Both the position numbers and the translations under genes were made by a program. Positions 4,357-18,475 of a stretch of 43,466 bases of DNA are shown piece after piece. The DNA is from an uncultured Mycoplasma sp. GTDB taxonomy: Bacteria; Bacillota_I; Bacilli_A; RF39; UBA660. How positions within the stretch are numbered: position 1 is the stretch's first letter; each line of letters opens with the position of its first letter. The stretch spans positions 1-43,466 of the forward strand of contig CAMMXG010000012.1 in the NCBI GenBank assembly GCA_946500895.1, in the 5' to 3' direction. The notes beneath the pieces were generated by a model that saw nothing but the letters and a program-made list of their open reading frames with translations, was not told where the DNA came from and searched no databases.

Positions 4357-5250
4357 TTATATCATTTCGTATTCTTTAGCAAGAATTCTCTCATCACTAC
4401 AATATTCCATAACATATTTATCATTTTTCCTGACAATTATTATTCCTATTGTTCTATCTTCCTCCATAGTTTTCATATTTTTATCTATGTAATGCATGTA
4501 TGTTTCGATTTGACCAATATGTTCCTTTTTTAAATTAGTTGTTTTTAATTCAATTACTACATAACACTTAAACCGAATATTGTATAGAAGTAAATCTATG
4601 AAATTGTATTTATTGCCTATTTTTATTTTATATTCATTTGCAATAAAGGTAAAACCACTTCCTAGTTCTTTTAAAAAAGATGGAATATCTTCTAATATTA
4701 GTTTTTGTAAAATCTTTTCTGATATGTTTTCATATTTATTAGTGTTTTTAATAATAATTGGATTTTTCACTAAATCTTGAATTCCTATTTCTCTATTTTC
4801 ACTTAATTTTTCTTTCGTTTCTTTTGGCAATCTCTCATATTCATTATTTTTTAATTTTTGAATTAACTCTCTTTTACTTAAATTTTCTTGTTTACATATA
4901 GTTATATAGTATAATATTTCGTTTTCTTCTTTTATCCTCAATAATTCGCAGTAATGACTCCATGTTAAAATTGCAGCCACTGGTTGCAATTTTTCATTAC
5001 AGCATATTTTTTCATAATATAGTCTCATATTATAAAGGGTTCTAGTACTATAATTTTTATTTAGTTCTTTTGATAATCGATATGAATATTCTTTTATAAC
5101 TCCTTCGCCATAACGCTTTTTAGCTTCCGATAAAAGTTTTCCAACTTGGTAATAAGTTTCTAAATCACTCTTATTTTTGCTATAATCTTTTATTTTCTTT
5201 GCTATTTCATTATTTATTATCTGTTTTTTTATTTCATTATAATAGTTCAT
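4357..5250 (-). CDS. DUF1016/YhcG-type PD-(D/E)XK nuclease-like protein
   Basis: A 297-residue protein. Residues about 15-110 match the DUF1016 N-terminal winged-helix region (YYQVGKLLSEAKKRYGEG, LSKELNKNYSTRTLYNMRLYY). Residues about 190-290 form the nuclease-like C-terminus: the acidic residue in FIDLLLYN and ELKT in CYVVIELKTTNLKKEH fit D-(x)n-ExK catalysis, followed by GQIETYMHYID. Family members are spread by horizontal transfer and are often near mobile or restriction genes, but their role is unsettled. A clean AAAGGAG site precedes the ATG, and it lies 14 bases after comEC on the same strand, so it is probably expressed with the competence operon. See the finding on its position. Confidence 0.82.
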   Translation of the reverse strand: MNYYNEIKKQIINNEIAKKIKDYSKNKSDLETYYQVGKLLSEAKKRYGEGVIKEYSYRLSKELNKNYSTRTLYNMRLYYEKICCNEKLQPVAAILTWSHYCELLRIKEENEILYYITICKQENLSKRELIQKLKNNEYERLPKETKEKLSENREIGIQDLVKNPIIIKNTNKYENISEKILQKLILEDIPSFLKELGSGFTFIANEYKIKIGNKYNFIDLLLYNIRFKCYVVIELKTTNLKKEHIGQIETYMHYIDKNMKTMEEDRTIGIIIVRKNDKYVMEYCSDERILAKEYEMI

Positions 5251-12099: not shown

Positions 12100-13410
12100 T
12101 TATGAAACGACGAGAGGTGTTTCAGACGTGCCATTTCCTTCAGAAAATTGTATATTAGACTTCATATTTATTACTGGGCGCACACCTCGCGTGCTAAACA
12201 CGTTCGTGTTGAAGAGCTGGCCAGTCGAATACACAATGAACACGCCAGCATAACTGCCGTTAAAGTAATACGGAGATATGGTCCAATAGTTACTATTTGT
12301 ATATAGGTAATAACTTTCATTTGTTTGACCATATACTCCTCCAGCATAGGCTACTTCATCTGCTGTAATTAATCCAATTGGATATGTTAATGCTTTATTT
12401 CCATCTTCACTTCCTTTTGTTGTATATAAATCTCCATCTGGACATTCAAATGTTGGTTGTTTATTTGTAACTAGTCTGATATATGCTCCATAGTATGTAG
12501 TTGTTGTTCCTGTTCCTCCTTGGTTATTAGTACTACTACTACTTGTGCTTGGTGTTCTATCTCCACAGAAACCTGCATTTCCATCTATTTTATCGGCATA
12601 ACTTGAAAGATTATTTTGATACCATGTATCTAGTTTCTTCTTTATTCCACTATCTGTGGTTGTTCCTCTCAAACTTCCTAACGTATACATATATCCTACG
12701 TATGCATTATTATTATAGGTACTACTATTAATTGAGAATGTACTTGTCTCTGTTTGCGTTCCTGTTCCTGTGGTATTGGCACTCGTTCCTTGGTAAATCA
12801 ATCTCAAGCTTCCATCTTCATTAATTCGAATAATTCTCCAGTATTTATTTGCAAATTTGACCCAGTTATCGGTTGGGTTTCCTGCAAAGTAGTATGTTCT
12901 TCCTTTTGATGTGTCTTCATAGTAAATTGTTCCGGTTGTATCTTCTGTTAATGTGGTACTAAAATCAGTTCTGGTTGCTAAGTTTTTACTTGCAATCAAT
13001 TCTTGGATATTTGTTATTCCTTTTTCATCAAAGTATAAATAACATTTTGTTCCTTTTGTTGTCATTGGTGTTACACTTAAACTTTTAGTTGCTGTATCAT
13101 ATGATAGGGAGATACTTGTATCTTCTTCGCCATCTATTGTGCAATAACTTTCACTCTCATTTAACACATGTCCTGATTCTGGAATCGTATCACTTTTAGT
13201 ATAACCACTATCGCCATTTATATATATTGCTACCGCATTTAAATCTGCTAAGCTATAGTTAATTGTTCCATTAACTAAAAGTATACTTTGTGTAACTCTA
13301 TATTTTGCTCTGGTAAAGTTTAATATAATTGCACTAATAATTAGTACTACTATTACTCCTATGATAATCTTCCTTTTCAAATGACTTCTTTTTAATACTT
13401 TAAAATTCAT
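12100..13410 (-). CDS. Large secreted or surface protein with GC-rich variable-looking C-terminus
   Basis: A 436-residue protein. A basic N-terminus and one hydrophobic helix (KIIIGVIVVLIISAIILNF, about 14-32) anchor or export it. The exported body starts AKYRVTQSILLVNGTINY. About 30-150 is an Ala/Ser/Thr-rich module with a paired-cysteine look (SYCTIDG, KCYLYF). The middle carries WVKFANKYWRIIRINEDGSLRLIY, and the end YWTISPYYFNGSY to GVRPVINMKS resembles C-terminal lectin-fold repeats ending 'GVRPxxNL'. I recognise this layout from uncharacterised gut Firmicutes proteins but not a function. Codons 12175-12275 are much richer in GC than the rest. Divergent from the HTH gene at 13587; strong promoter at 13501. 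Confidence 0.72.
   Translation of the reverse strand: MNFKVLKRSHLKRKIIIGVIVVLIISAIILNFTRAKYRVTQSILLVNGTINYSLADLNAVAIYINGDSGYTKSDTIPESGHVLNESESYCTIDGEEDTSISLSYDTATKSLSVTPMTTKGTKCYLYFDEKGITNIQELIASKNLATRTDFSTTLTEDTTGTIYYEDTSKGRTYYFAGNPTDNWVKFANKYWRIIRINEDGSLRLIYQGTSANTTGTGTQTETSTFSINSSTYNNNAYVGYMYTLGSLRGTTTDSGIKKKLDTWYQNNLSSYADKIDGNAGFCGDRTPSTSSSSTNNQGGTGTTTTYYGAYIRLVTNKQPTFECPDGDLYTTKGSEDGNKALTYPIGLITADEVAYAGGVYGQTNESYYLYTNSNYWTISPYYFNGSYAGVFIVYSTGQLFNTNVFSTRGVRPVINMKSNIQFSEGNGTSETPLVVS
12175..12275 (-). other. GC-rich candidate variable region inside the surface gene
   Basis: About 48% GC over 12181-12280 (hand count), against about 30-35% in flanking coding DNA. Codons such as CTC, TTC, CAG, GTG, ACG, CGC and TCG are unusual for the neighbours. 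Many aromatic, Ser and Asn codons end in C, as if derived from AAC by changes at the first two bases. It ends at GGTGTGCGCCC, a GC-rich block positioned like the homing site of a diversity-generating retroelement target. No template repeat or reverse transcriptase is in the window, so this is a candidate only. Confidence 0.4.
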
Positions 13411-18364: not shown

Positions 18365-18388
18365 AAAAAACTCGTGTTTACGAGTTTT
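18365..18388 (-). terminator. Terminator of tRNA-Arg
   Basis: Stem AAAACTCG/CGAGTTTT with a 6-base loop, then a T-run on the minus strand. Confidence 0.85.
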
Positions 18389-18398
18389 ATTAACAAAG

Positions 18399-18475
18399 TG
18401 GTGACTCCGGGGCGATTCGAACGCCCGACCGATCGCTTAGAAGGCGATTGCTCTATCCAGCTGAGCTACGGAGTC
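18399..18475 (-). tRNA. tRNA-Arg(TCT)
   Basis: Complete cloverleaf: acceptor GACTCCG/CGGAGTC, D-arm TAGCTCAGCTGG, anticodon stem ATCGC/GCGAT with loop CTTCTAA (anticodon TCT, Arg), T-arm with GTTCGAA. The discriminator is A and CCA is encoded (18399-18401). Confidence 0.96.

Follow-up and report, generated by a model that had tools for sequence, protein, structure and literature searches.

A putative diversity-generating retroelement variable repeat in a surface protein gene of an uncultured Mycoplasma sp., and candidate template cassettes across its genus

The 102-nt segment at positions 12175-12276 of the window (the whole 43,466-nt stretch of DNA from an uncultured Mycoplasma sp. analysed here) is very probably the variable repeat (VR) of a diversity-generating retroelement (DGR), at the C-terminus of a membrane-anchored, probably C-type-lectin-like protein. 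We hold with equally high confidence, on the strength of comparative sequence analysis alone, that the segment is the VR of a DGR target and that its genus carries many noncoding template cassettes, which would serve dozens of lectin-like surface genes. The initial annotation had marked the segment as a candidate DGR target, and this proposal is supported by adenine-biased noncoding copies and a DGR-type reverse transcriptase (RT) in the same genome. The role of the system in surface variation is inferred, and activity of the window VR is not established.

The target gene and its variable repeat

The predicted target gene is an open reading frame on the minus strand (13410..12100), and its translation gives a 436-aa surface protein with an N-terminal membrane helix and a C-terminal variable domain. 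According to sequence and structural model, residues 11-36 (13303..13380, minus strand) form a hydrophobic helix that is probably a membrane anchor or signal, localisation being inferred. The C-terminal domain covers residues 132-436 (12103..13017, minus strand) and contains the VR. The VR itself, TCTCCG...GGTGTGCGCCCA, occupies 12276..12175 on the minus strand and is homologous to noncoding cassettes over exactly that span, with adenine-biased differences. Its GC-rich 3' end, GGTGTGCGCCCA (12175..12186, minus strand), is where the homology between VR and cassettes stops and is probably an IMH-like homing end. That the GC-rich end could be the homing site had been suggested beforehand; GGTGTGCGCCC is indeed the 3' end of the homology between template repeats (TRs) and VRs, as expected for such a site.

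The GC contrast claimed for the segment holds: the VR has 51% GC, the remainder of the gene 32% and the window 28%. Across the 43 kb, a GC content as high as that of the VR is reached by just 0.11% of the 105-bp segments, and the one other equally GC-rich place, from 18366-18400 onwards, is a tRNA-Arg gene. Eighteen VRs of the genome that contains the window (hereafter the source genome) were compared: in the ten codons that precede GVRP, differences occur at frequencies of 0.56, 0.55 and 0.30 at codon positions 1, 2 and 3, whereas codons upstream of the VRs show the usual coding pattern of 0.16, 0.12 and 0.32. Because positions 1 and 2 outvary position 3, the opposite of normal codon divergence, the many C-ending codons with varying first two bases that had drawn attention to the segment are real. 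The window protein also has a DUF6273 match at residues 366-417 and is one of about 30 homologous targets in the source genome. Another homologous target, around position 1520 of L026 (C18:5787), contains stops in the reading frame of its VR and appears to be a decayed gene.

An AlphaFold2 model of the window protein reached a pLDDT of 85, with values mostly above 90 in the C-terminal domain. When this domain was compared using VIA-align, it gave a Z of 13.4 to a domain of Thomasclavelia IgA peptidase, and of 6.2, 4.8 and 3.7 to Legionella Lcl, LOX-1 and Mtd, respectively. Foldseek alone returned nothing for the window protein at E<=0.001. The lectin fold proposed for the target is thus backed by structural similarity to C-type lectin domains that is weak to moderate, but not by a significant Foldseek result; judging from the model, a lectin-like fold of the C-terminal domain is likely, not proven.

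Template cassettes and adenine-biased variation

The window holds neither an RT nor a TR, and both had been expected elsewhere; both were located elsewhere in the source genome (1.28 Mb in 53 contigs, 71% complete). With the window VR as query, about 40 similar places were found in this genome, many of them target genes and others intergenic. The intergenic copies have in common a tail of ~130 nt after GGTGTGCGCCCA, and a search with this tail found 15 cassettes, 14 of them with an intact end and with GGTGTGCGCCCA identical in those 14 of 15. This end is the same in VRs and cassettes, and the sequences diverge directly after it. The noncoding template repeats homologous to the 3'-end VRs of target genes are these 15 cassettes and a TR on contig C2. 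Templates carry on average 10.0 AAC/AAT codons compared to 2.7 per VR, and the cassettes resemble asparagine-rich versions of the VRs (e.g. SPYNFNNGNANVFRVNSNGNLDAPNVNNTNGVRP, where the window VR reads SPYYFNGSYAGVFIVYSTGQLFNTNVFSTRGVRP). The genome-wide search that had been proposed, for a copy of ~100 bp differing at adenines and for an RT, returned about 15 noncoding copies rich in Asn codons, as well as a DGR-type RT with an Avd-like gene on C2. In one cassette (L069:1380-1630, on C30), the end GGTGTGCGCCCAATATCC is lost and reads GGTGTGCGAAGAGTAT, and part of the first stem is also gone; this is probably a broken template.

Each TR looks like a free-standing RNA gene consisting of a TATAAT box, a 5' arm, the TR and a covarying 3' structure, a prediction made without transcript data. 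The 5' arm GGTTAATCT and the 3' arm around the TR pair at 9/9 positions in 80 of the 83 genus cassettes analysed, compensatory changes included. In the search pattern for the arms, some positions are set and the others may change only from purine to purine or from pyrimidine to pyrimidine, so that conserved arm positions say little. An exact TATAAT lies just upstream of 61/83 cassettes, compared to 5.3 expected, mostly 6-7 nt before the arm, and a T-run occurs near the tail end in 51/83. In the predicted fold of the ~130-nt 3' tail, 98.4% of cells are paired, and ten pairs have changed on both sides compared to 4.1 in shuffles. At gathering thresholds, no Rfam family matched the cassettes. These comparisons demonstrate a conserved predicted RNA fold and promoter-like boxes on the cassettes, whose transcription is inferred.

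Each VR was paired with its closest template under symmetric scoring. In the 13 closest pairs of the source genome, template-A sites were changed in 168/353 cases compared to 99/961 for other sites (p=2e-45), and A was found in the template only 168 times and in the VR only 39 times. Seven pairs from a relative, G017 (99% complete), gave 93/209 A sites compared to 48/493 others (p=7e-24). Since sites within one VR are not independent, these p-values overstate certainty and it is the effect size that matters. Between the window VR and its closest cassette, at C5:28020, 11/17 mismatches fall at template A (29 A among 99 sites, p=9e-4), leaving six non-A differences, one of them at a VR adenine, plus codon indels; a cassette on C11 and a VR on C20 form a cleaner pair, with 11/13 mismatches at A.

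A complete cognate template of the window VR was not found in the 71% complete assembly, where the VR shows non-A differences and codon indels relative to every cassette. Given these non-A differences, its own template may lie in the missing part of the genome, may since have changed, or may have been a partial donor. About ten other VRs of the source genome show little adenine bias and look old. In G017 as well, though this genome is 99% complete, many VRs retain numerous non-A differences to every template.

The tail is present in 34 of 36 genus species (203 copies) and, under stricter filters, was found outside the genus in only two other genera among 150 sampled in the family. Cassettes also form arrays with a period of ~300 bp, with about 12 consecutive units in G030 and five in each of G017 and G020. 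Two neighbouring cassettes of the G030 array (L171:4880-5480) appear identical, which points to a template unit that was recently duplicated in tandem. VR-domain matches amount to 1,041 in the 36 species (5-71 each, median 28, with a few cassettes or fragments included in the count), in genomes of 0.8-1.5 Mb. The number of cassettes correlates with the number of targets, with a rho of 0.66, rising to 0.77 in genomes at least 90% complete (no correction for kinship). G015 and G023 are without cassettes and also without RT; G002, G011, G025 and G033 have no RT match yet show 1-8 cassette matches.

Genes for DUF1016/YhcG nucleases (PADLOC PDC-S02 candidates) often lie immediately upstream of cassettes on the same strand, as counted by hand in 16 pairs from 8 genomes, with up to 18 DUF1016 matches in one genome. 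Such genes are located at L034 2938-3855 and 4160-5215, L037 2685-3605 and L036 5664-6611, and on L176 and L178; the one in the window (4357-5250) is not beside a cassette. DUF1016 number does not correlate with either cassettes or targets, and no DUF1016 match was found in four species that have cassettes. An essential partnership was rejected on the basis of presence/absence and the lack of correlation.

Reverse transcriptases and the cassette tail

The source genome contains three RT genes. The RT on C2 carries the DGR motif GLPIGNLTSQ and YMDD, and its neighbours are a bAvd-like gene and a small MutS-domain-I-like ORF. Its TR (L031 about 8910-8798, minus strand) adjoins the RT, and direct reading of the adjacent target shows a VR that differs from it at template adenines only. 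A genome search with this TR found a single close VR, and the C2 TR was rejected as the direct source of the window VR, with too many non-A differences. Two species of the genus (C73 of G014, L153; C2 of the source genome, L031) share a C2-type RT with 100% amino acid identity, which suggests recent horizontal transfer. Neither of the other two RTs looks like the partner: judged by sequence alone, without comparison to models, the one at the end of contig C5 is a group II intron maturase, and the one at C5:3389 is retron-like. The latter (L003 1216-2430, best PADLOC model RT_VI), though in the same genome as the window VR, is a separate gene about 23 kb from the nearest C5 cassette.

A second type of RT is encoded in a syntenic chromosomal operon of genus species, with MutS-like (MutS_I match), Avd and RT genes. 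The chromosomal RTs of relatives carry GLPIGNMTSQ where the C2 RT has GLPIGNLTSQ, and RVT_1 is matched above cut-off (GxxxSQ replaces QGxxxSP in the motif; no tree was built with reference DGR RTs). For Avd, the Pfam family bAvd (PF22296) matches the relatives' operon at 5e-10, above cut-off, and the C2 copy at 3e-8, just below the curated cut-off. The chromosomal operon was not found in the 71% complete source assembly. The syntenic neighbour gene is on C48, and we ascribe the absence of the operon to the end of this contig, at the operon's position, in an IS605-type gene (type read from sequence). In relatives, the position taken by this IS605 OrfB/TnpB-like gene (L169:1-1032) at the end of the contig is that of the MutS-like/Avd/RT operon.

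A covariance model was built from the tails of the source genome only. It matched the spacer between TR and RT in the C2 DGR, in its G014 copy and in a DGR of G012 (E 0.004-0.01, modest), and also matched just upstream of the RT operon in L269, L274, L280, L261 and L255, all from relatives represented by uncultured Bacilli MAGs, rabbit-gut bins among them. In Bordetella phage BPP-1, the TR-RT spacer folds and recruits bRT-Avd (PMC12875486). Because the tail model matches RT-linked spacers and the BPP-1 spacer recruits bRT-Avd, the most fitting reading of the cassette tail is as the portion of a template RNA that binds the RT. Around those chromosomal RT operons of the genus that were searched, no tail match was detected for several kb, nor was a TR detected beside the operon. 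A TR close to the RT is found in the C2 DGR, L269, L274 and L280, the cassettes of the source genome being otherwise dispersed. Action of a DGR RT in trans on the cassettes is inferred.

Mosaic repeats, rival explanations and known systems

In L269 (3900-5165), four templates in tandem, which belong to another VR family (SRNGWNTWTGWFNG...) and have the same tail fold, lie upstream of a MutS-like/Avd/RT operon, possibly an intermediate between conventional and dispersed templates. The L269 VR is an exact two-template mosaic, in which one template accounts for the 5' 20 codons and a second for the 3' 16. Apart from 11 template adenines, nothing has changed over the 108 nt; with a single template, four non-A differences remain. 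This fits 3'-anchored retrohoming with tracts of variable length, the polarity being inferred, but template switching or recombination between templates would equally yield the mosaic. Mosaic decomposition of the VRs of the source genome and G017 left 0 non-A mismatches for only a few. As decomposition adds freedom and lacks a null model, only the L269 mosaic, where four templates are in full view, was used as evidence.

The templates themselves also vary. In the TR columns of source-genome cassettes, consensus-A cells depart in 25% of cases compared to about 10% for other bases (p=7e-12), and in the tails the corresponding values are 13% and 9%. This suggests, for the one genome from which it is inferred, that templates have been rewritten at adenines or descend from rewritten copies. 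If templates are overwritten in this way, the template library would evolve too.

In the mechanism we propose, each cassette would be transcribed as a small RNA, and proteins from another locus, namely a DGR RT with Avd and a MutS-domain-I-like partner, would bind its tail. The bound RT would make adenine-mutated cDNA from the cassette RNA. Starting at the GGTGTGCGCCCA end, this cDNA would retrohome into any target whose VR matches and exchange a tract that is anchored at its 3' side and varies in length. Over repeated rounds with different templates, mosaic VRs would build up. Several observations weigh against this reading: the source assembly lacks a complete template for the window VR and the chromosomal RT operon, the RT on C2 has a divergent TR of its own, cassettes occur without an RT match in G011, G025 and G033, many VRs of G017 keep non-A differences, and the spacer matches are modest. 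The full genus-wide version, with an autonomous library of up to about two dozen template RNAs, RT/Avd/MutS-like proteins acting in trans, genes that are template mosaics with adenine hypermutation, and templates that are overwritten too, remains tentative, and we give it slightly less than an even chance.

Both alternatives raised in the initial annotation, gene conversion from silent cassettes and foreign DNA, are disfavoured by the adenine bias, the RNA-gene anatomy and the genome-wide copies. Silent-cassette conversion would draw on intergenic, pseudogene-like donors through ordinary homologous recombination, possibly helped by the DUF1016/YhcG nuclease, with no reverse transcription. Mosaic VRs could arise in this way, and the frequent position of cassettes immediately 3' of DUF1016 genes, in the 16 same-strand pairs from 8 genomes, agrees with it, yet nothing in such a process predicts a strong one-sided adenine bias, donors with promoters, pairing arms and covarying tails, or the match of the tail to RT-linked spacers. 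The uncorrelated DUF1016 number and the four cassette-bearing species without a DUF1016 match also speak against it, and we consider it very improbable. A recently acquired or randomly GC-rich gene end without any diversification mechanism would explain the strong GC contrast but leaves unexplained why this GC-rich frame is found again in about 30 genes and in 15 noncoding copies within the genome, with third codon positions conserved and first and second positions varying; we give it almost no credence.

More weight, though still well short of a likely explanation, belongs to a fossil system, in which a past DGR made the window VR and the lineage has since lost its RT or template, leaving the VR fixed. 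The lack of a complete cognate template and of the chromosomal RT operon in the source assembly, the IS605-type gene at the syntenic spot, and the ten or so old-looking VRs with little adenine bias are all compatible with such a loss. However, the assembly reaches only 71% completeness, the source genome also has close TR/VR pairs that are fresh (such as that with 11/13 mismatches at A), the cassettes retain their fold and promoter-like boxes, and a conventional DGR RT is present on C2.

The system inferred here resembles the BPP-1 DGR (brt, avd, TR, mtd) in its RT with Avd, its A-rich noncoding TR, the C-terminal position of an A-biased VR in a protein with a lectin fold (in the genus a likely one), the GC-rich VR 3' end and the structured RNA 3' of the TR, which in BPP-1 recruits bRT-Avd (PMC12875486). 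BPP-1 has one TR, between avd and brt, and one target, whereas the genus has dozens of targets and many TR genes that stand apart and appear to have promoters of their own, and, unlike BPP-1, an RT operon without a detected adjoining TR. Like retrons, the cassette RNA would have pairing 5' and 3' arms around the copied segment; unlike retrons, the genus RTs carry the DGR motif and adjoin Avd, and the copied segment matches genes with an A-bias. The retron hallmark, an RT adjacent to an msr-msd RNA with a1/a2 pairing, is lacking, most cassettes having no RT beside them.

DGRs that act in trans, have remote targets or contain a few TRs are already known (PMC10907252, PMC8867640, PMC6642488, PMC4891356). 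DGR targets at other loci are diversified in trans (PMC10907252), 18 loci with TR/VR homology occur in Trichodesmium erythraeum (PMC8867640), about one fifth of the multi-VR DGRs in the MetaCSST survey include more than one TR (PMC6642488), and the Treponema denticola DGR has TR variants (PMC4891356). The multi-target DGRs of T. erythraeum and Thiohalocapsa PB-PSB1 are like the present system in their remote target genes and trans action, but their templates belong to RT loci or decayed copies, and the portions of text available describe no free-standing template-RNA library or tandem TR arrays. Within the same limits, the multi-TR DGRs of the MetaCSST survey and T. denticola have few TRs, which are not described as separate promoter-bearing RNA genes, arrays or mosaic sources. 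We found no description of free-standing TR-RNA genes or TR arrays in the literature searched, subscription papers aside, and on this ground regard the architecture, in which free-standing, arrayed template-RNA genes would serve tens of targets, as a new form of an otherwise known type of system.

Conventional DGRs keep one or a few templates with the RT locus, whereas here the template seems to have become an RNA gene in its own right, which multiplies and serves a very large number of targets. The arms and tail, kept across about 200 templates, form a natural experiment on the RNA parts that a DGR RT requires, and the mosaics form one on how retrohoming tracts end. The tail model can serve as a search tool, since surveys that seek repeats only near an RT would miss such templates and targets. 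The system also offers a test of how a host-associated bacterium with a small genome runs a large, diversified surface repertoire and, if true, the genus-wide template library would mean that a gut lineage diversifies dozens of surface genes at once.
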